Part shown: positions 15,668 through 57,478 of the stretch, piece by piece
Position numbering within the stretch: position 1 is the stretch's first letter
Layout of the letters: every line of letters begins with the position of its first letter
Notes under the pieces: model-generated
The model's input: the letters and a program-made list of their open reading frames with translations, nothing else
What the model was told of the DNA's origin: nothing
The model's database searches: none
Made by a program: the position numbers and the translations under genes
From: Oecophyllibacter saccharovorans
GTDB taxonomy: Bacteria > Pseudomonadota > Alphaproteobacteria > Acetobacterales > Acetobacteraceae
Direction of reading: 5' to 3'
Assembly: GCF_006542375.1 (NCBI RefSeq)
Contig: NZ_CP038143.1
Span: 992,001 to 1,056,000, forward strand
DNA: 64,000 bases

Positions 15668-18600
15668 ATGCGCCTTCACCAATCCGGGCGTCGTCATTTA
15701 GCTGGAGCAGTTCGTCTTTCTACTGAAATGGGTAGAGAGCTGTTTCCACGCAAATACCATCTTCATCTGGCTACGCTGCTGCTGTGCAGTTCCGGTCTGT
15801 TGGTTCCGGCTGCGGCACGGGCGGCCTCCGATGGAATGGGGCTTGATGACAGCCAGGTGACGGGTCAGTCCGGTGTCATGGATCTGGCGGACAGCACGGA
15901 AACATCCGCTCCCCTCACTTTCGGAGCGGTCAGCTATACGCCGGGCCAGACGACTTCTGCAGGCACCAAGCTGGGAGGCACACAGGGCAATGGCGGGGGC
16001 AGCTCGTATCAGAAGACTGGTACGGGCACGACCACCATTACCGATGCCCAGAGCTACACCGGCGCTGTCGCTGGAGATGCTTTCCCGAAAGGGCCGAGCG
16101 ATCCGGTTCCTAACGGCAGCATTTCCGTCGAAAACGGCAAGCTGGACATCGGTGCGGGCGGTAAGGTCAGCAATGATGGCTACGTCATTGTTGGCCGTGA
16201 CGGCAACGCTGCTGGGATGGACATTGTCAATGGCGGCACGCTTGACGCCAAGGGCAATGTGAACATCGGGCTTGCGGGCAACTCGAACGGTGAGCTGACG
16301 GTTGACGGTTCGGGCTCGCGTGCGGACGTTGCGGGCAGCCTGACGGTCGGCAATGGCGACAGCAGCTACGGCTCGGGCAAGGGCGGCCAGGGCACGCTGA
16401 ACGTGACCAATGGCGGCCAGGTGACGGCAGGCCAGGTGTTTGCGGGCAACTATGCGGGCAGCACGGGCACGGTCAATGTGGGCGGCAAGGGCGCGCAGCT
16501 GACGGCGACGCAGCTTCTGGCGGTGAACGGTGACGGCAACGGCACCGTGAACATCAATGACGGCGGCACGGTTGTGTCGCAGGGTGTTGTTGCGTTCGGC
16601 GACGGCAGCGGTCAGGGCAGCGGGACGCTGAACGTGAACGCCGGTGGCAAGCTGATTGCTGGTGACAGCAACGGCCAGAGCGGGATCCAGTCGACCGGCA
16701 GCGCGTATGCGATGAACCTGAACGGGGGCACGCTGCAGGTTCGCAGCGGCAGCGACCTGAACACGTCAGTGAACATGAAGCTGACGGACGGTAGCAACGG
16801 TGCCTCGACGATCGACACGAACGGGGGCAATGCGGGGCTGTCCGGTGTGCTGTCGGGCAGCGGTGCGCTTGACAAGGCGGGCCAGGGCACGCTGACGCTC
16901 ACCGGCGACAACACCTATACCGGTAACACCACCGTCGCCAACGGAACGCTGCAGCTGGGCAATGGCGGCACGACGGGGTCGATCGCCAGCAAGAACATCG
17001 CGCTGGCTTCGGACACGTCCGAGCTGGTGATCAACCGCAGCAACGACCTGGCGATGAACCAGACGATCACCGGTTCCGGCGGGATGACCAAGAAGGGCGC
17101 CGGCACGACGACGCTGACGGGCAATGTGGACCTGGAGGGCACGAGCCCTGACGGCAAGGCATGGCCCAAGGACATGAACGCGCCCACGCCCGGTGGCAGC
17201 ATCGCGGTTCAGGACGGCAAGCTGGACATCGGTGCAGGCGGCCACGTGACCAACAACGGTTACGTGATCATCGGCGACGGTCATGGCAACGCTGCTGGGA
17301 TGGACATTGTCAATGGCGGCACGCTTGACGCCAAGGGCAACGTGAACATCGGGCTTGCGGGCAACTCGAACGGTGAGCTGACGGTTGATGGCTCGGGCTC
17401 GCGTGCGAACGTTGCGGGCAGCCTGACGGTCGGCAATGGCGACAGCAGCTACGGCTCGGGCAAAGGTGGCCAGGGCACGCTGAACGTGACCAATGGCGGC
17501 CAGGTGACGGCAGGCCAGGTGTTTGCGGGCAACTATGCAGGCAGCACGGGCACGGTCAATGTCGGCGGCAAGGGCGCTCAGCTGACGGCGACGCAGCTTC
17601 TGGCGGTGAACGGTGACGGCAACGGCACCGTGAACATCAATGACGGCGGCACGGTTGTGTCGCAGGGTGTTGTTGCGTTCGGCGACGGCAGCGGTCAGGG
17701 CAGCGGGACGCTGAACGTGAACGCTGGCGGCAAGCTGATTGCTGGTGACAGCAACGGCCAGAGCGGGATCCAGTCGACCGGCAGCGCGTATGCGATGAAC
17801 CTGAACGGGGGCACGCTGCAGGTTCGCAGCGGCAGCGACCTGAACACGTCAGTGAACATGAAGCTGACGGACGGTAGCAACGGTGCCTCGACGATCGACA
17901 CGAACGGGGGCAATGCGGGGCTGTCCGGTGTGCTGTCGGGCAGCGGTGCGCTTGACAAGGCGGGCCAGGGCACGCTGACGCTCACCGGCGACAACACCTA
18001 TACCGGTAACACCACCGTCGCCAACGGAACGCTGCAGCTGGGCAATGGCGGCACGACGGGGTCGATCGCCAGCAAGAACATCGCGCTGGCTTCGGACACG
18101 TCCGAGCTGGTGATCAACCGCAGCAACGACCTGGCGATGAACCAGACGATCACCGGTTCCGGCGGGATGACCAAGAAGGGCGCCGGCACGACGACGCTGA
18201 CGGGCAATGTGGACCTGGAGGGCACGAGCCCTGACGGCAAGGCATGGCCCAAGGACATGAACGCGCCCACGCCCGGTGGCAGCATCGCGGTTCAGGACGG
18301 CAAGCTGGACATCGGTGCAGGCGGCCACGTGACCAACAACGGTTACGTGATCATCGGCGACGGTCATGGCAACGCTGCTGGGATGGACATTGTCAATGGC
18401 GGCACGCTTGACGCCAAGGGCAATGTGAACATCGGGCTTGCGGGCAACTCGAACGGTGAGCTGACGGTTGACGGTTCGGGCTCGCGTGCGGACGTTGCGG
18501 GCAGCCTGACGGTCGGCAATGGCGACAGCAGCTACGGCTCGGGCAAAGGCGGCCAGGGCACGCTGAACGTGACCAATGGCGGCCAGGTGACGGCAGGCCA

Positions 18601-21600
18601 GGTGTTTGCGGGCAACTATGCGGGCAGCACGGGCACGGTCAATGTCGGCGGCAAGGGCGCGCAGCTGACGGCGACGCAGCTTCTGGCGGTGAACGGTGAC
18701 GGCAACGGCACCGTGAACATCAATGACGGCGGCACGGTTGTGTCGCAGGGTGTTGTTGCGTTCGGCGACGGCAGCGGTCAGGGCAGCGGGACGCTGAACG
18801 TGAACGCTGGCGGCAAGCTGATTGCTGGTGACAGCAACGGCCAGAGCGGGATCCAGTCGACCGGCAGCGCGTATGCGATGAACCTGAACGGGGGCACGCT
18901 GCAGGTTCGCAGCGGCAGCGACCTGAACACGTCAGTGAACATGAAGCTGACGGACGGTAGCAACGGTGCCTCGACGATCGACACGAACGGGGGCAATGCG
19001 GGGCTGTCCGGTGTGCTGTCGGGCAGCGGTGCGCTTGACAAGGCGGGCCAGGGCACGCTGACGCTCACCGGCGACAACACCTATACCGGTAACACCACCG
19101 TCGCCAACGGAACGCTGCAGCTGGGCAATGGCGGCACGACGGGGTCGATCGCCAGCAAGAACATCGCGCTGGCTTCGGACACGTCCGAGCTGGTGATCAA
19201 CCGCAGCAACGACCTGGCGATGAACCAGACGATCACCGGTTCCGGCGGGATGACCAAGAAGGGCGCCGGCACGACGACGCTGACGGGCAATGTGGACCTG
19301 GAGGGCACGAGCCCTGACGGCAAGGCATGGCCCAAGGACATGAACGCGCCCACGCCCGGTGGCAGCATCGCGGTTCAGGACGGCAAGCTGGACATCGGTG
19401 CAGGCGGCCACGTGACCAACAACGGTTACGTGATCATCGGCGACGGTCATGGCAACGCTGCTGGGATGGACATTGTCAATGGCGGCACGCTTGACGCCAA
19501 GGGCAACGTGAACATCGGGCTTGCGGGCAACTCGAACGGTGAGCTGACGGTTGATGGCTCGGGCTCGCGTGCGAACGTTGCGGGCAGCCTGACGGTCGGC
19601 AATGGCGACAGCAGCTACGGCTCGGGCAAAGGTGGCCAGGGCACGCTGAACGTGACCAATGGCGGCCAGGTGACGGCAGGCCAGGTGTTTGCGGGCAACT
19701 ATGCAGGCAGCACGGGCACGGTCAATGTCGGCGGCAAGGGCGCTCAGCTGACGGCGACGCAGCTTCTGGCGGTGAACGGTGACGGCAACGGCACCGTGAA
19801 CATCAATGACGGCGGCACGGTTGTGTCGCAGGGTGTTGTTGCGTTCGGCGACGGCAGCGGTCAGGGCAGCGGGACGCTGAACGTGAACGCCGGTGGCAAG
19901 CTGGTTGCAGGTGACAGCAACGGCCAGAGCGGGATCCAGTCGACCGGCAGCGCGTATGCGATGAACCTGAACGGGGGCACGCTGCAGGTTCGCAGCGGCA
20001 GCGACCTGAACACGTCAGTGAACATGAAGCTGACGGACGGTAGCAACGGTGCCTCGACGATCGACACGAACGGCGGCAATGCGGGGCTGTCCGGTGTGCT
20101 GTCGGGCAGCGGTGCGCTTGACAAGGCGGGCCAGGGCACGCTGACGCTCACCGGCGACAACACCTATACCGGTAACACCACCGTCGCCAACGGAACGCTG
20201 CGGGTTCTGGGAAGCACGGCTTCCTCGGCCAATACAACGGTTAACCAGGGCGCGACCCTGGACGGCACGGGCACGATCGGCAATGCCACCATTTACGGCA
20301 CCTTTGCACCGGGTCTCGGAACGTCCAACCCGTATGGCAAGATGCAGGTGAATGGCAGTGCCGTCATGAAAGCCGGCTCGTCAATGGTGGCGAATGTCGG
20401 CCCCAACCTGGCCTCCAGCCAGGCGGACCTGACCGGTTCTTTCGCCATTGATCCGGGCGCGACCCTGCATGTGACGGCCAATGATGGCGCCAACCTTAAC
20501 CTGGGTCAGCACTACACGCTTGTTGATGCCACGGGCGGCGTTTCTGGCAAGTTCACCAGCTACGATCAGAGCGGCCTGATCGCCACGCACTCCATGCTGG
20601 AAATTGCAGGTGTGAACTACACCTCCAATGAGGTGCAGATCGGCCTGATGCGCAACCCGAATGCCAGCTTCTGCATCGGGGCGGGCACGCGTAACGAGTG
20701 CGCGGCCGGTCACGGGCTGGACGGCGTGGTGGGTTCCACGGGTGACAATGCTCTGACCAATATCGTTGCCGGTCTGAGCAATGCCCAGCGTTACCGTGCT
20801 CTGGATGCGCTGTCGGGTGAGATTCATGCCAGTGCGCGCACGGCCATGATCAATGACAGCTATTACATCCGTAATACGGTCATCGATCGACTGGACTGTG
20901 TGGATGATGAGCTTCGTCGCCTTTCCCGTGGTCAGAAAGGCCGCGGTTACTGTGACGAAGGCATGAAATACGGCAAGATCAACCTGTGGGGCACTGTCTA
21001 CGGTAACCAGGGTCACAATGCCGGCAGCCGTCCGGCCGCCACCAATGCCGCGGGCCTTGATACCAGCGATGTCGGCTGGATCATGGGCGCTGACACGATG
21101 GTCGGCCAGTGGCGCGTCGGTGGCAACCTGGCTTATGGACGCTCCTGGTTCTCCAATGGCGGGGCCCGCGATTCCAGCACCAGCTCCAACAACGTGACCC
21201 TCGGCGCCTATGCGGGCACCGCGTGGAAAGTGGGCGGTGTGAACCGGGATGCCCAGGTTACCCTGAAGCTCGGTGCCGATTATACCTGGAACATCCTCAA
21301 CTCCAGGCGCACGATCCGCTTCCCGGGCTACTATGGTCACACGAATGGCGGCAATCTGGGTGGCACTGCGCAGGTCTTCGGTGAATCCGGCTACAAGTTC
21401 ATCGTGATGGCTACCAGGGAGAACCCGGTTGAGCTGGAGCCGTTCGTGCGGATGACCTGGGTCAACTACAACAGCTCGCACATGAACGAGCACGGCGATA
21501 CGCTGGCCAACCTGCGCGTCAAGGGACAGGACACCAGCATGGGTTACTCGACCTTCGGGCTGAAGGCGGCGACGCGTGTGAAGTTCGGTGCCGGGTGGAT

Positions 21601-21865
21601 TTCCCCGCATGTCATGGCGGCTTACCGTTATGCCTTCGGCATCACGCGTGGCACGGTGCGTGAACGTTTCGGTGTGGCTGGTGCCGGTGTCGGTTACGAC
21701 ATGGATGTGATCGGTACGCCGCTTTCCACCAATACGGCCCTGGTGGAAGCCGGTGTGAGTGCCAAGATGACCGATCGTCTGGACATCGGACTGGACTTCA
21801 TCGGTCAGTATGGCAATCGCCTTACGACCAGCGGCGGTATGGGTCATGTGACCTATCGCTGGTAA
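15668..21865 (+). CDS. Giant repeat-containing autotransporter adhesin
   Basis: A 2065-residue type Va autotransporter. The long N-terminal signal (about 1-53) has a charged region, a hydrophobic core LATLLLCSSGLLVPAAARA and a cut near ARA-A. The passenger (about 54-1665) is rich in Gly, Asn, Ser and Thr and lacks cysteine. It consists of 361-residue units carrying the autotransporter-associated beta-strand motif (SGSGALDKAGQGTLTLTG) and predicted to form a beta-helix. A linker with paired cysteines (FCIGAG..NEC; LDC..GYC) precedes a C-terminal beta-barrel (about 1770-2065) ending in the aromatic signature VTYRW. The ATG follows AAGCGGGG. Such proteins mediate adhesion or aggregation. The passenger lacks a visible protease motif, and specificity is unknown. 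Confidence 0.93.
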   Translation: MRLHQSGRRHLAGAVRLSTEMGRELFPRKYHLHLATLLLCSSGLLVPAAARAASDGMGLDDSQVTGQSGVMDLADSTETSAPLTFGAVSYTPGQTTSAGTKLGGTQGNGGGSSYQKTGTGTTTITDAQSYTGAVAGDAFPKGPSDPVPNGSISVENGKLDIGAGGKVSNDGYVIVGRDGNAAGMDIVNGGTLDAKGNVNIGLAGNSNGELTVDGSGSRADVAGSLTVGNGDSSYGSGKGGQGTLNVTNGGQVTAGQVFAGNYAGSTGTVNVGGKGAQLTATQLLAVNGDGNGTVNINDGGTVVSQGVVAFGDGSGQGSGTLNVNAGGKLIAGDSNGQSGIQSTGSAYAMNLNGGTLQVRSGSDLNTSVNMKLTDGSNGASTIDTNGGNAGLSGVLSGSGALDKAGQGTLTLTGDNTYTGNTTVANGTLQLGNGGTTGSIASKNIALASDTSELVINRSNDLAMNQTITGSGGMTKKGAGTTTLTGNVDLEGTSPDGKAWPKDMNAPTPGGSIAVQDGKLDIGAGGHVTNNGYVIIGDGHGNAAGMDIVNGGTLDAKGNVNIGLAGNSNGELTVDGSGSRANVAGSLTVGNGDSSYGSGKGGQGTLNVTNGGQVTAGQVFAGNYAGSTGTVNVGGKGAQLTATQLLAVNGDGNGTVNINDGGTVVSQGVVAFGDGSGQGSGTLNVNAGGKLIAGDSNGQSGIQSTGSAYAMNLNGGTLQVRSGSDLNTSVNMKLTDGSNGASTIDTNGGNAGLSGVLSGSGALDKAGQGTLTLTGDNTYTGNTTVANGTLQLGNGGTTGSIASKNIALASDTSELVINRSNDLAMNQTITGSGGMTKKGAGTTTLTGNVDLEGTSPDGKAWPKDMNAPTPGGSIAVQDGKLDIGAGGHVTNNGYVIIGDGHGNAAGMDIVNGGTLDAKGNVNIGLAGNSNGELTVDGSGSRADVAGSLTVGNGDSSYGSGKGGQGTLNVTNGGQVTAGQVFAGNYAGSTGTVNVGGKGAQLTATQLLAVNGDGNGTVNINDGGTVVSQGVVAFGDGSGQGSGTLNVNAGGKLIAGDSNGQSGIQSTGSAYAMNLNGGTLQVRSGSDLNTSVNMKLTDGSNGASTIDTNGGNAGLSGVLSGSGALDKAGQGTLTLTGDNTYTGNTTVANGTLQLGNGGTTGSIASKNIALASDTSELVINRSNDLAMNQTITGSGGMTKKGAGTTTLTGNVDLEGTSPDGKAWPKDMNAPTPGGSIAVQDGKLDIGAGGHVTNNGYVIIGDGHGNAAGMDIVNGGTLDAKGNVNIGLAGNSNGELTVDGSGSRANVAGSLTVGNGDSSYGSGKGGQGTLNVTNGGQVTAGQVFAGNYAGSTGTVNVGGKGAQLTATQLLAVNGDGNGTVNINDGGTVVSQGVVAFGDGSGQGSGTLNVNAGGKLVAGDSNGQSGIQSTGSAYAMNLNGGTLQVRSGSDLNTSVNMKLTDGSNGASTIDTNGGNAGLSGVLSGSGALDKAGQGTLTLTGDNTYTGNTTVANGTLRVLGSTASSANTTVNQGATLDGTGTIGNATIYGTFAPGLGTSNPYGKMQVNGSAVMKAGSSMVANVGPNLASSQADLTGSFAIDPGATLHVTANDGANLNLGQHYTLVDATGGVSGKFTSYDQSGLIATHSMLEIAGVNYTSNEVQIGLMRNPNASFCIGAGTRNECAAGHGLDGVVGSTGDNALTNIVAGLSNAQRYRALDALSGEIHASARTAMINDSYYIRNTVIDRLDCVDDELRRLSRGQKGRGYCDEGMKYGKINLWGTVYGNQGHNAGSRPAATNAAGLDTSDVGWIMGADTMVGQWRVGGNLAYGRSWFSNGGARDSSTSSNNVTLGAYAGTAWKVGGVNRDAQVTLKLGADYTWNILNSRRTIRFPGYYGHTNGGNLGGTAQVFGESGYKFIVMATRENPVELEPFVRMTWVNYNSSHMNEHGDTLANLRVKGQDTSMGYSTFGLKAATRVKFGAGWISPHVMAAYRYAFGITRGTVRERFGVAGAGVGYDMDVIGTPLSTNTALVEAGVSAKMTDRLDIGLDFIGQYGNRLTTSGGMGHVTYRW
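16203..20200 (+). repeat. 1083-bp tandem repeat, about 3.7 copies, inside the autotransporter
   Basis: Near-identical in-frame units begin at 16203, 17286, 18369 and 19452, each starting GGCAACGCTGCTGGGATGG; the last unit stops at 20200, where sequence changes to CGGGTTCTGG. The period is exactly 1083 bases (361 codons). Differences are a handful of single bases. Units 1 and 3 read GCGGAC (Ala-Asp) where units 2 and 4 read GCGAAC (Ala-Asn), with several linked silent changes. A diverged partial unit precedes the first copy (about 16010-16202). Confidence 0.95.
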
Positions 21866-22002: not shown

Positions 22003-22683
22003 ATGAACGGCACTATCACAGTGAAAATGAAACTTCTCTTGGCGCTGCCAGCAATCAGGCAGACTTCGCTTGTTCAATTTTCCTGCCTCAGACCTGCCTG
22101 GAAACATTCAGTCAGTCTGGCGTTTGGACTTTTCTGTGTGGGCCTTTTTTCTCAGAACTGTCTGGCTGCCACGGCCCCCATGACCAGGCTTGGAAGCCGC
22201 CCCGCAGAAGAAGCGCCTGTGCAAGTGGCAGTATTCCAGGACTGGAAATTAGCCTGCCAACAGCAGACAGGCCCTGATAAAACGGTCAGATGTGTGGTGA
22301 GCCAGAGGCTGCTTAATCAGCGCACCCATCAGCAGATCGTGCGTATTTCCTTTCAGCCACTGGCTCATCAGGTCAATGGGCAGGTGATGCTGCCTTTCGG
22401 CCTTGCGTTGCTGAAGGGCTTAGATCTCAGGATGAATACTGATCCCGTAGGGCAGAATTATCCTTTCACGACCTGTCGGGCCAATGGCTGTATTGTGCCG
22501 TTGGATCTCGATGATACCCAGATGCGAAACTTCCAGCAGGCCCGCCAGGTGCAGCTCTCGTTCCAGCTGCTCAACGGACGCGAAATCACCGTGCCGATTT
22601 CCATGCGGGGCTTTAATGAAGCCTGGAAAAGAGCCCAGACCCTGACTGGCCAGGCGAGTCAGACTGATGCCAGCGCGCCTTGA
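22003..22683 (+). CDS. Invasion-associated locus B (IalB) family protein
   Basis: A 226-residue exported protein with the IalB family pattern first seen in Bartonella: a signal or anchor segment (about residues 35-55, HSVSLAFGLFCVGLFSQNCLA), then FQDWKLACQQ, TVRCVVSQRL, LPFGLALLKGLDLRM, the paired cysteines in TTCRANGCIVPLDL and a C-terminal NGREITVPISMRGF. IalB-like proteins are periplasmic or outer-surface and widespread in alphaproteobacteria. Their molecular role is not settled, so the invasion label should not be taken literally. It lies between the autotransporter and the type I secretion operon. The start is uncertain: in-frame GTG 22021 and ATG 22027 are alternatives. Confidence 0.88.
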   Translation: MNGTITVKMKLLLALPAIRQTSLVQFSCLRPAWKHSVSLAFGLFCVGLFSQNCLAATAPMTRLGSRPAEEAPVQVAVFQDWKLACQQQTGPDKTVRCVVSQRLLNQRTHQQIVRISFQPLAHQVNGQVMLPFGLALLKGLDLRMNTDPVGQNYPFTTCRANGCIVPLDLDDTQMRNFQQARQVQLSFQLLNGREITVPISMRGFNEAWKRAQTLTGQASQTDASAP

Positions 22684-28758: not shown

Positions 28759-31700
28759 ATGATGAGCACAGGGTCCAGCCCGCAATCTCGCCCCTCCCAA
28801 CGGGAGGGAGTGCCTGAAACAGGCGGGCGTTACAGGGCAGAAACGCGCCGCTTTGCAGGCTATGGCAGTGCAGCTGCCGAGGCGGCGCGTGCTGAAGGGC
28901 GCAGACGTCGCGCAAGGGAGGCGCGTGAAGCTTTCGAGCAGGGGCAGGATGCGCTGGCGGCTGGAAAACCGGCAGAGGGCTTTTTCTGGCTGGAACGTTC
29001 GGAAAGGCTGACCGGGGGATGCAGTGTCGCTACCCTGGCCAAGGTAACGGCCGCCCTGGCGTTGGACCGACCGCAGGTGGCCCTGCCTGGCCTGCAACGC
29101 CTGCGCCAGGCGCACGACCTGCCGGAAGCCGCTTATGGCGAAGCATTGTGCCTGGAACGTCTGGGGCGGATGCCGGAAGCCGCCCGGCTTCTGCAACATT
29201 GCCTTGACCACCTGCCTGTTCCCGAAGCTTTTCAGCCGTTGGCCGACCGGCTGGCCCGCGTTTCGCAACGACCGGGCTGGGCGACGCTGTCCAATGATTC
29301 GACCCTGCTGTTGCGCAGCCCGGTGGCTGCGGAAGTGCGTCTCGACGGAGAATTGCTGGGTTGGCTGCCCTCAGGGCGCCATGTGCTGGAGGGTCTTGAT
29401 AAGGCTGATGAGGAGGCGGGTCCGGCTTCCGGCGGGCACCCAGGGCGTTATCTGACAGTGCGCGTGCAGGGGCATGACGTTCTTGGCAGCCCGTTTGACC
29501 TCCAGGCCTTAAGACGTTGCGAGTCTCTGGTCGTTGCGACGGAAAGCGGCATTTCTGGCTGGCTGTACCATCCGGCGGAACCGGATTTCAGGCCGAAACT
29601 GTTTCTGGAACCGCTACATCCGTCTTCCGGCGTTTCTGAAAAGAGTTTTCCATTGGATGTCAGCGCCTGTCTTGGCCCTGAGGGAAGCCAGGAGGCAGAA
29701 AAATGGTTTCCGGCAGTGGAAAGGGGGCTGAGCAGGCCATGGTTCTTCACGCTTGAGCGAGCTACCCTGCCCGATCTGGCAGAAGGCGCTTCCTTTATCC
29801 TGAGCGATACACATGGACGACCGTTGAGAGGGGCGCCTGTTTACGGGTCTCTGGCGGATCTGCGGGCTCATGTATCTGGCGTTCCCGCAACGCCACTGCC
29901 CCTGGCTTATAAGCTTGCGGAGCCGGAAGAAGACAGAACTGATCTGAGCGCGCCGGAGCCAGCTCGGCAAAAGCCCGTTGACGGGTGTGTGGTGATCGTG
30001 CCGGTTCACAATGGCGGCAAGGACACTTTCGACTGCCTGCAGAGCCTTCTGCTCAGCGTGGCGCCGGAAGAGGCGCAACTGCTCGTGATTGATGATGCAT
30101 CAACAGACCCGGCGCTTCTGCAGCGTCTGGAGGCACTGGCCGGGTCGGGTCGGCTTACGCTTCTGCGCAATGAACGCAATCTGGGTTTCGTGGGCAGCGT
30201 CAATCGGGGTCTCGCCCATGTTCTGGCGCAGGCGGGTGTTGCAGAAAATGCGGCCATACCGGCATCGGAAGTGGTTTTAAAGCCAGTTCCCGATGTCATT
30301 CTGCTCAACAGCGATACCTATGTTTTCCCTGGCTGGCTGAGCCGTCTGCGACGTTGGCTGAGCCTGCCGCGGGTTGGTACGGCAACGCCGTTTTCAAACG
30401 CTGGCGGTCAGCTTTCATGGCCCAGTGTCAGCCAGGCTAATCCCTTTCCGAGCCTGGAAGAAGCCCGTCAGCTCGACCGTCTTTGCGCCAGCCTTCCCAG
30501 GGCAGCGCCTATGAATGAAGAGAGCGGCACGGGCGTCGCATCCCTCCCGCCCCTGGTGACCGGCAACGGATTCTGCATGGGCATTTCGGGTGCCTGTCTG
30601 CAACAGACCGGGCTGTTGCGTGCAGAGGTTTTCGCCCAGGGTTACGGTGAGGAGAACGATTTCTGCCTCCGGGCCTCTGCAGCGGGTTTCGTGCATCTGG
30701 CTGCAGCGGATGTCTACGTGCGCCACAGGGGAAATGTTTCCTTCGGGCCTGGCGGGCAGGCGCTGCTGGCACGCAACCTGCGTCTCGTTGAAATGCTGCA
30801 TCCGGGTTACCTGCAGCAGGTCCAGGCCTTCGAGCAGCGTGACCCCCTGGCGCCAATGCGGCGGGAACTGGCTGAGGGCTGGCTGCTGGCGCAGTTTGAA
30901 CATTCTCCAGCCGGCAAAGAAATATTTCCTGCAGGCAGCGTGGTGTTGATCGAGCATGAGGGCGGCGGAGGTGTTGCGCGTGCTGTGCGTGAAAGGGGGG
31001 CTGCCCTGCGCCAGGAAGGCTTTATGGCGTTGACCCTCTCTCCGACTGCATCAGGCTGCCGTCTGGCGCTGGCCGAGCCTGCGGCCGGGGAAGTGCCGGG
31101 GCAGGTGCGGCCCGAGATCAATTACAGCCTGCCTGCTGAAGGGCCGCGCCTCGTGGGACTTCTGAAAGCGCTCGGCACGAAAGCGGTGGAATGGCATCAT
31201 CTCGTCGGCCACGCGCCCTGGATGCGTCAGCTGCATGTGGAACTGGGCGTGCCTTATGATGCCTATGTACATGATCATGTCTGGTTCTGCCCCCGCATCG
31301 CTTTGCTGTCGCCTGAAGGCAACTATTGCGGAGAGCCGGATCTGGCCGCGTGCCGGGCCTGTGTTGCGCGTGGGGGCATGGTCCTGGGAGAGGAGATCGA
31401 ACTGCCTGCCTTGCGCCAGCGCTCCGCTCAGGAACTGGCAGCGGCCCGGCACGTCATTGCGCCCAGCCAGGATGCGGGCGCGCGTCTGAAGCGGCACTTT
31501 CCTGCTTCCAGGCCCGTGACGGTCAGGGCGCCGCAGGATGAAAGCCGGCTTCGACAGGCTTTCAGGGAGGCGCGGGTCCGTCGCTCTCATCAATCTGGGC
31601 GTCAATCCGGGCGTGGCAACGTGTCTGGTGAAAATCCAGTCAGCCGCTGGCGGATCGGCATCGTGGGCGGCATCAGTCGCTGGAAAGGGGGTGACCTCCT

Positions 31701-32181
31701 GTTGGATCTCGCCCGTTACGTGCACCAGGCGCAGCTGCCGCTCGATTTCGTCCTGATCGGCACTTCAGAGCATGATGAGGCTCTGATCAGCGCAGGCGTA
31801 GCGGTAACAGGGCCTTACCGTGAGGAAGAAGCGCTGGAACTGGTGGAAAAGGCTGAGCTGGACCTGGGCTTTATTCCCTCTCTTGCACCTGAAACCTGGT
31901 GTTACGCGCTGGAATGGCTGTGGCGTGCAGGGGTGAAGGTAGCCTGTTTTGATATCGGCGCGGTGCCGGAGCGGATTCGGGCCGCTGAGAGGGCAGCGGG
32001 CGGCACAGAGCCCGGAAACGAGCCGTTTTTCGGCATGGTTCTGCCGGTTCTTTCGGCAGCTGGTAACGATGGCGTGGAAAAAGAGGTGGCTGCCCTGGCC
32101 CAACGCCTGCTGGCGCTTGCCAGTCAGGAAAGGCCGCCAGGTGTCGCTGAAAGAAGTGATAAGGGGCAGGAAGCGGGTTGA
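28759..32181 (+). CDS. Large two-domain glycosyltransferase (GT2 plus GT4-like)
   Basis: A 1140-residue protein. An N-terminal TPR-like helical part (about 40-190) is followed by a beta-rich region with the ISGWLYHPAEPD motif (about 265-280). A GT-A (GT2) domain from about 410 contains VVIVPVHNGG, VIDDAS, LLRNERNLGF and the metal-binding NSD (about 517). A GT-B (GT4-like) domain, about 760-1130, contains HDHVWFCPR, the cysteine motif CGEPDLAACRAC (about 856-867) and GGISRWKGGDLL. It probably adds two sugars in sequence to a glycan or glycoprotein. The ATG overlaps the frame-restored end of the SEL1 gene, placing it in the type I secretion operon. Acceptor unknown. Confidence 0.85.
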   Translation: MMSTGSSPQSRPSQREGVPETGGRYRAETRRFAGYGSAAAEAARAEGRRRRAREAREAFEQGQDALAAGKPAEGFFWLERSERLTGGCSVATLAKVTAALALDRPQVALPGLQRLRQAHDLPEAAYGEALCLERLGRMPEAARLLQHCLDHLPVPEAFQPLADRLARVSQRPGWATLSNDSTLLLRSPVAAEVRLDGELLGWLPSGRHVLEGLDKADEEAGPASGGHPGRYLTVRVQGHDVLGSPFDLQALRRCESLVVATESGISGWLYHPAEPDFRPKLFLEPLHPSSGVSEKSFPLDVSACLGPEGSQEAEKWFPAVERGLSRPWFFTLERATLPDLAEGASFILSDTHGRPLRGAPVYGSLADLRAHVSGVPATPLPLAYKLAEPEEDRTDLSAPEPARQKPVDGCVVIVPVHNGGKDTFDCLQSLLLSVAPEEAQLLVIDDASTDPALLQRLEALAGSGRLTLLRNERNLGFVGSVNRGLAHVLAQAGVAENAAIPASEVVLKPVPDVILLNSDTYVFPGWLSRLRRWLSLPRVGTATPFSNAGGQLSWPSVSQANPFPSLEEARQLDRLCASLPRAAPMNEESGTGVASLPPLVTGNGFCMGISGACLQQTGLLRAEVFAQGYGEENDFCLRASAAGFVHLAAADVYVRHRGNVSFGPGGQALLARNLRLVEMLHPGYLQQVQAFEQRDPLAPMRRELAEGWLLAQFEHSPAGKEIFPAGSVVLIEHEGGGGVARAVRERGAALRQEGFMALTLSPTASGCRLALAEPAAGEVPGQVRPEINYSLPAEGPRLVGLLKALGTKAVEWHHLVGHAPWMRQLHVELGVPYDAYVHDHVWFCPRIALLSPEGNYCGEPDLAACRACVARGGMVLGEEIELPALRQRSAQELAAARHVIAPSQDAGARLKRHFPASRPVTVRAPQDESRLRQAFREARVRRSHQSGRQSGRGNVSGENPVSRWRIGIVGGISRWKGGDLLLDLARYVHQAQLPLDFVLIGTSEHDEALISAGVAVTGPYREEEALELVEKAELDLGFIPSLAPETWCYALEWLWRAGVKVACFDIGAVPERIRAAERAAGGTEPGNEPFFGMVLPVLSAAGNDGVEKEVAALAQRLLALASQERPPGVAERSDKGQEAG

Positions 32182-56906: not shown

Positions 56907-57061
56907 GAATCTTCACCTCGGTCTTTTCGCCCCGGCCGGGTAAGCCAAGGGCAATCACAGGGAAGATCCGGTAATGATGGACGGCAGTTCAGGGAACGCT
57001 TTCAGGGGCCTTAAGGTGCCGGGGCACCGACTAGCTGCTTTGCGTAAGCGCTCGGTTATTC

Positions 57062-57150
57062 CTGTCCCTTCGCCGGTATGAGCCGGATCAGGTTCAAAGG
57101 GTCCGGCCTGGTGACCGTCTCAGCCTGGCCAATGCCAGACACCCCTCGGA
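57062..57150 (-). ncRNA. TPP riboswitch (THI element)
   Basis: On the minus strand the aptamer's conserved parts appear in order: GGGGTGTCTGGC, CTGAGA, ACCCTTTGAACCTGATC, then CTCATACCGGCGAAGGGA. These match the thiamine pyrophosphate riboswitch pattern (CUGAGA and ACCUGAUC...GCGAAGGGA cores). It sits about 155 bases before the TonB receptor start, leaving room for an expression platform; a compact GC hairpin (GGTGCCCCGGCACC) lies about 30 bases after it, and the receptor's ribosome site GAGGTGA is a possible sequestration target. Binding of TPP should switch the operon off. Confidence 0.93.
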
Positions 57151-57478
57151 ACGCCAAAAACCTACTACACGTGCCGCAGGCCTGTCCATTGCGGGTGGGG
57201 CATGGCACGTGCGTTCTGCCTGCCCCCGTGTCTCTTCAGGGCCGCTTGAGAGGGGGCAGGCCGTGGGGGCCGGTTCTGCCGCTCTTGCATGCAGGGGGAA
57301 AGAAACGATAATTTCGCTTTTCTGCTGTTACCCCTAGACCTGTAGTACCCTCAGACCTGCGCCTGCTTTGTCTGACGGTTCCGCAGGGGGTGCTGCAATC
57401 CGGTCTCCTTCAGGAGCGTCCTCCGGTGCAGCTCTGACAGAGCCGGTTCATGAAGTCATCCAGAGGATCTCTGAGCGC
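57151..57478. other. Divergent spacer between the riboswitch and rpe
   Basis: About 330 bases holding the promoters for the thiamine operon (minus) and rpe (plus). A GC-rich stretch (57160-57300) is followed by AT-richer sequence (57300-57345, CGATAATTTCGCTTTTCTG) that could hold a plus-strand promoter. An in-frame TTG at 57368 could extend rpe upstream, but the ribosome site favours 57479. Confidence 0.45.

Follow-up and report, generated by a model that had tools for sequence, protein, structure and literature searches.

A predicted type Va autotransporter with a near-identical tandem repeat array and an IalB-family neighbour in Oecophyllibacter saccharovorans

The locus and its repeat array

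The largest open reading frame of the window, by which we mean the whole 64-kb stretch of Oecophyllibacter saccharovorans DNA that was analysed, is an uninterrupted plus-strand frame of 2065 codons (Table 1), for which the ATG at position 15728 is a possible alternative start. The preliminary description of this DNA had called the product a giant autotransporter encoded by the largest gene present. The frame does exceed all others in the window, but 'giant' is a relative term, as the genes of family relatives reach 3000–7000 codons. Upstream lie bioA and bioF on the opposite strand. The gene is followed by one for an IalB-family protein and then by genes for an HlyB-like ABC transporter, an HlyD protein (above the NCBIfam cut-off), a Sel1-repeat protein and glycosyltransferases. 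It is thus placed, as had been stated, at the head of a secretion and glycosylation region that includes HlyB-like/HlyD-like type I secretion genes.

Two other features of the window were recorded. A 1140-amino-acid protein (positions 28759–32181), which adjoins the Sel1-repeat protein and the type I secretion pair, gives TPR-like matches together with glycosyltransferase matches to family 2 and, weakly, to family 4; it may act in protein glycosylation. A TPP riboswitch (RF00059, 71 bits) is located on the minus strand at positions 57047–57156.

Table 1 Features of the autotransporter locus (positions in the window)
Feature	Position	Strand	Basis or remark
Predicted type Va autotransporter gene	15668..21865	+	Open frame with PATR and T5SS/PEP-CTERM repeats and PF03797
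Signal region, residues 1–54, hydrophobic core LATLLLCSSGLLVPAA, likely cleavage near ARA/AS	15668..15829	+	Read from sequence
Unit 1	16202..17284	+	Left edge diverged
Exact 1079-nt tract recurring 2166 bp on, spanning a unit junction	16646..17724	+	
Unit 2	17285..18367	+	
Unit 3	18368..19450	+	Variants common to unit 1
Unit 4, partial	19451..20201	+	Variants common to unit 2
Last PATR repeat, array/translocator junction	20117..20206	+	Best PATR stretch, residues 1484–1513
Autotransporter beta-barrel PF03797	20984..21796	+	E 1.3e-41, 143.5 bits versus cut-off 26
IalB-family (PF06776) exported protein, directly downstream of the autotransporter	22003..22683	+	80.1 bits versus cut-off 22.1

Much of the gene is a tandem array whose unit measures exactly 1083 bp (361 codons) and is present in 3.7 copies, with a high-identity span of about 16193–20207. 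The near-identical units reported earlier within this one gene are therefore real features of the assembled sequence: in-register copies share 98.4–99.6% DNA identity, with 4–12 differences per pair, and the left edge of unit 1 falls to about 74% identity across 81 nt. Of 14 variable sites in the array, 12 are third codon positions, and the two amino-acid replacements among the units (Asp/Asn and Ile/Val) are both mild. No further copy of the unit was found elsewhere in the genome. The array is missing from the output of TRF because the longest period that this program reported, 500, is shorter than 1083 bp.

The N-terminal region carries a hydrophobic core followed by ARAAS, and the final residue is W; both were read from the translation. 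Cysteines are confined to residue 40, in the signal region, and to residue 1669 onward, so the passenger between them is cysteine-free. Residues 55–1700 are composed of 21.7% Gly, 11.1% Thr, 9.8% Asn and 8.9% Ser. Both properties agree with the preliminary description, which had taken them as typical of a beta-helix adhesin. A Pfam scan identified four PATR stretches, and an NCBIfam scan identified eight T5SS/PEP-CTERM repeats along with four PATR-type repeats, such that each 361-residue unit holds two T5SS/PEP-CTERM repeats and one PATR. Almost all of the passenger is repeat, and neither Pfam nor NCBIfam scans recognised a tip domain in residues 55–178.

In a classical type Va autotransporter, PF03797 is the 12-strand C-terminal barrel domain in the passenger's own chain. 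Here the match covers residues of about 1773–2043; it was not picked up in the full-length scan and appeared once the C-terminal part was scanned alone. No other PF03797 protein was found in the genome. With a same-chain PF03797 barrel, PATR repeats in the passenger, a Sec-type signal region and a terminal aromatic residue, the gene product is, judging from its sequence features, a classical (type Va) autotransporter, and the repeat matches also lend support to the beta-helix-type passenger proposed before.

Modelled with AlphaFold from a single sequence, one unit plus flanks (483 residues; mean pLDDT 57, pTM 0.61) forms a regular strand ladder at modest confidence, with residues 33–240 mostly at pLDDT 60–89. 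The best PDB matches of the resulting model are the passengers of antigen 43 and TibA, at TM-scores of 0.31 or lower. Thus, the predicted fold class is supported by the model, and a detailed likeness to antigen 43 or TibA is not.

A secreted protease-type autotransporter is suggested on its face by the C-terminal third, where matches were obtained to EprS, a serine peptidase model (NCBIfam, residues 1481–2056), and to the Ssp structure 8e7f (phmmer, residues 1475–1667). We rejected this reading as extremely improbable. The EprS match scores 168 bits, far below the cut-off of 1700, and covers just the PATR, linker and barrel, the Pfam and NCBIfam scans found no catalytic domain, and a passenger that is nearly all repeat speaks against it as well.

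Array history and family relatives

Variants within the array are phased in a manner that records its recent history. Seven sites set copies 1 and 3 apart from copies 2 and 4 in an ABAB pattern, and the longest exact match is found at two-unit distance (1079 nt), compared with 845 nt at one unit and 164 nt at three units. The ABAB variants together with the exact tract recurring 2166 bp away are the traces expected of a duplicated two-unit block, and we therefore assign the last large event in the array to such a duplication. At two further sites it is copies 1 and 4 that share a variant not seen in 2 and 3, and three changes are unique to copy 4, indicating that some gene conversion or edge decay is present as well. 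The recent expansion or ongoing homogenisation that had been proposed for the array fits these phased and mostly synonymous differences. Overall, the preliminary description was correct in what it observed and largely right in how it interpreted it, its interpretation being partly supported.

Long tandem repeats of near-identical sequence are classically prone to misassembly, which raises the question of an artefact. We consider this very unlikely. The phased variants differ from copy to copy and 12 of 14 fall in third positions, a pattern expected neither from duplicated contigs nor from read errors, and the reading frame stays open across every copy of the array in a genome of two contigs rated 100% complete. 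Because random read error would spread at roughly one third per codon position, the copies look real and constrained at the protein level. The exact copy number in the assembly could still be wrong.

A different alternative accepts the array and holds that the units stay alike, at a stable copy number and with no variation in length, through gene conversion or because a fixed multivalent surface is selected for. The third-position bias does reveal constraint on the unit, and the sites shared by copies 1 and 4 against 2 and 3 are those that conversion would give. This explanation nonetheless seems rather unlikely to us, given the block-duplication trace left by the ABAB pattern and the exact tract at two-unit distance, and given the many array sizes among relatives.

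These relatives come from 299 genomes of the same GTDB family, in which the genus is represented by one genome. A match to the autotransporter exists in 50 of the 299, the relatives' barrels being 33–53% identical to that of the window, and a scan of genome contigs returned distant relatives only. Near-identical long repeats occur in 13 of 22 family autotransporter genes examined, and the other nine have no stretch exceeding 75% self-identity over 200 nt. Arrays range from about 1.3 to 13 units. For example, genome G115 has 13 copies of an 846-bp unit at 99.8% identity, G029 has 6.2 copies of a 693-bp unit at 99.4% identity, and units of 1227 bp and 1968 bp are found in G210 and G061, respectively. 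In the genome with the nearest barrel (G066, 53%), a 7084-codon frame contains near-identical units measuring 1185 bp and 3501 bp. Such near-identical units are common and yet differ in period, which suggests that passengers in the family have been rebuilt repeatedly by expanding local modules, and that the window's array is mid-sized among them.

The nearest available test of length variation is provided by two congeners, G214 and G246, which have a 621-bp unit in common at about 4.1 and 2.6 copies. The sequences of this pair support variation, with the difference of about 1.5 units being no whole number.

Two of the relatives' loci merit separate description. In G115 the array lies within a 4543-codon autotransporter frame (locus L055, G115:C1:1480000-1499000) and contains a 10.1-kb exact self-match at one-unit distance. 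The 7084-codon frame of G066 is located on the minus strand of contig C1 at about 555.8–578 kb (loci L038/L039), and homologous repeat coding goes on upstream of it in other frames, so this gene either contains a frameshift or extends further than the assembly indicates.

In the genome that contains the window, 16S rRNA was not found by a search of the assembly that recovered 16S from just 9 of 14 control genomes, and its absence may therefore be a limit of the data. The only rrn operon of Oecophyllibacter is plasmid-borne (PMC10645730).

IalB genes beside type V secretion genes

IalB-family proteins are known as 'invasion' factors of Bartonella and Brucella. The one encoded in the window is the only PF06776 protein of its genome and a relative of 3dtd (E 6e-4); its single-sequence AlphaFold model, at a pLDDT of 39, is uninformative. 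Among the flanking proteins tested at relatives' loci, only IalB recurs beside autotransporters, and a tie between the autotransporter and the type I system or the glycosyltransferases is consequently without support here. A conserved HlyB/HlyD neighbourhood was considered and rejected, its single matches at loci L005 and L054 not being of the recurrent kind.

Across the 299 family genomes, a same-strand IalB gene directly follows 22 of 150 listed autotransporters within 1.5 kb, where about 0.04 would be expected, and 21 of these 22 pairs are separated by 450 nt or less from domain to domain. The pairs among the matches listed are drawn from eleven genus codes. Individual examples of an IalB gene adjoining an autotransporter include G214, G246, G100, G157, G280, G072, G230, G203 and G061, among others. 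IalB genes also adjoin those for TpsB (PF03865): a TpsB gene lies directly downstream of at least 21 of 126 listed IalB genes, a floor derived from all of the top 28 PF03865 matches and some lower-scoring ones. Of the family's 22 TpsB proteins with the best scores, 21 take part in these pairs, and the exception (G117) is on a contig with no listed IalB. Only the listed, best-scoring matches to PF03797, PF06776 and PF03865 enter into either pair count. Among ten proteins neighbouring other IalB genes, a first Pfam scan identified two ShlB/FhaC proteins, and a second scan of IalB neighbours identified six.

Further adjacent pairs are seen, by coordinates, in the wider class. IalB is adjacent after an autotransporter in G373 and before one in G323, G432 and G437, and TpsB directly precedes IalB in G331. 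At two of these loci, both from another family (L086 and L087; G323:C25 and G432:C1), an autotransporter frame of ~5,670 codons immediately follows the IalB gene.

In a tree of 61 IalB domains, linkage to autotransporters requires 12 state changes, fewer than nearly all shuffles, with at least nine forced by well-supported branches; the 'free' labels used here were assigned before the TpsB link was noticed. A well-supported clade of 15 that contains the window's protein and one from another family has 12 autotransporter-linked members. On this tree and these gene orders, the pairing has arisen or vanished several times, and in more than one arrangement, which favours function over mere shared ancestry.

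An IalB gene adjoins that of the trimeric adhesin BatA (PMC7688925), and an IalB homologue adjoins the trimeric adhesin BadA (PMC8859334), the relationship being left open in both reports. A limited search of the openly accessible literature did not find IalB tied to type Va or type Vb genes. Together, gene linkage and the published BatA and BadA neighbours suggest a role for IalB proteins in type V secretion. That the family supplies general exported accessories of type V secretion (Va, Vb and Vc) in Alphaproteobacteria is a tentative extension, to which we would give somewhat less than an even chance. If it is true, the 'invasion' phenotypes would follow from adhesin biogenesis. For a family whose role beside BatA and BadA published accounts describe as awaiting exploration, the pairing provides a function that can be tested directly.

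Proposed mechanism and comparison with known systems

We consider it likely that the gene encodes a type Va autotransporter with an adjustable repeat stalk resembling those of Periscope proteins, probably serving adhesion or aggregation, and that the adjacent IalB protein is its helper. This model starts from the domain order, the array, the in-frame unit length and the constraint on the unit, all of which are read directly from the DNA. The barrel would be inserted by BAM, and the passenger would be drawn out and fold at the cell surface as a long beta-helix. Homologous recombination between near-identical units would then yield a longer or shorter stalk with the frame intact, since units of 361 residues are whole in-frame modules, and stalk length may be adjusted in this way in the manner of Periscope proteins. 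By analogy with such systems, unit number may vary between strains. Adhesion or cell–cell aggregation is the most likely role of the autotransporter. From its gene linkage, IalB would most likely be an exported helper of autotransporter biogenesis.

The array design is already known, because a review of the Periscope class, which is defined by highly identical single-chain repeats, covers such proteins and names ShdA of Salmonella, a member whose PATR repeats number 4–6 between strains (PMC9704523). The window's protein resembles these in that it is a single-chain surface protein anchored by an outer-membrane barrel and that its long tandem repeats have very high identity at the DNA level and include PATR, and its 361-residue repeats far exceed the 50 residues above which tandem repeats are counted in the class. 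It differs in that its unit mixes T5SS/PEP-CTERM and PATR repeats. In Periscope proteins each repeat folds on its own, and the rod so formed holds a functional tip away from the cell. Unlike typical Periscope proteins, the window's autotransporter has no recognisable tip domain outside the repeats. With this array the Periscope design would come to include units of ~1 kb, among relatives with small genomes from a single family.

Antigen 43 and TibA, which are self-associating, share the type Va architecture and are the best structural matches of the unit model, at low TM-scores, but their passengers are not made of near-identical 1-kb units. The autotransporters of G066, G115, G029, G210 and G214/G246 have related barrels and near-identical long repeats of other unit lengths; the family provides several independent, very long arrays in which a change in stalk length could be followed. 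The pairing with IalB recalls BatA–IalB in Brucella and BadA with its IalB homologue in Bartonella, where a same-strand IalB gene likewise adjoins the gene of an autotransporter adhesin. BatA and BadA are trimeric (type Vc), whereas the predicted partner of IalB in the window is monomeric (type Va) and that in other genomes is TpsB (type Vb).
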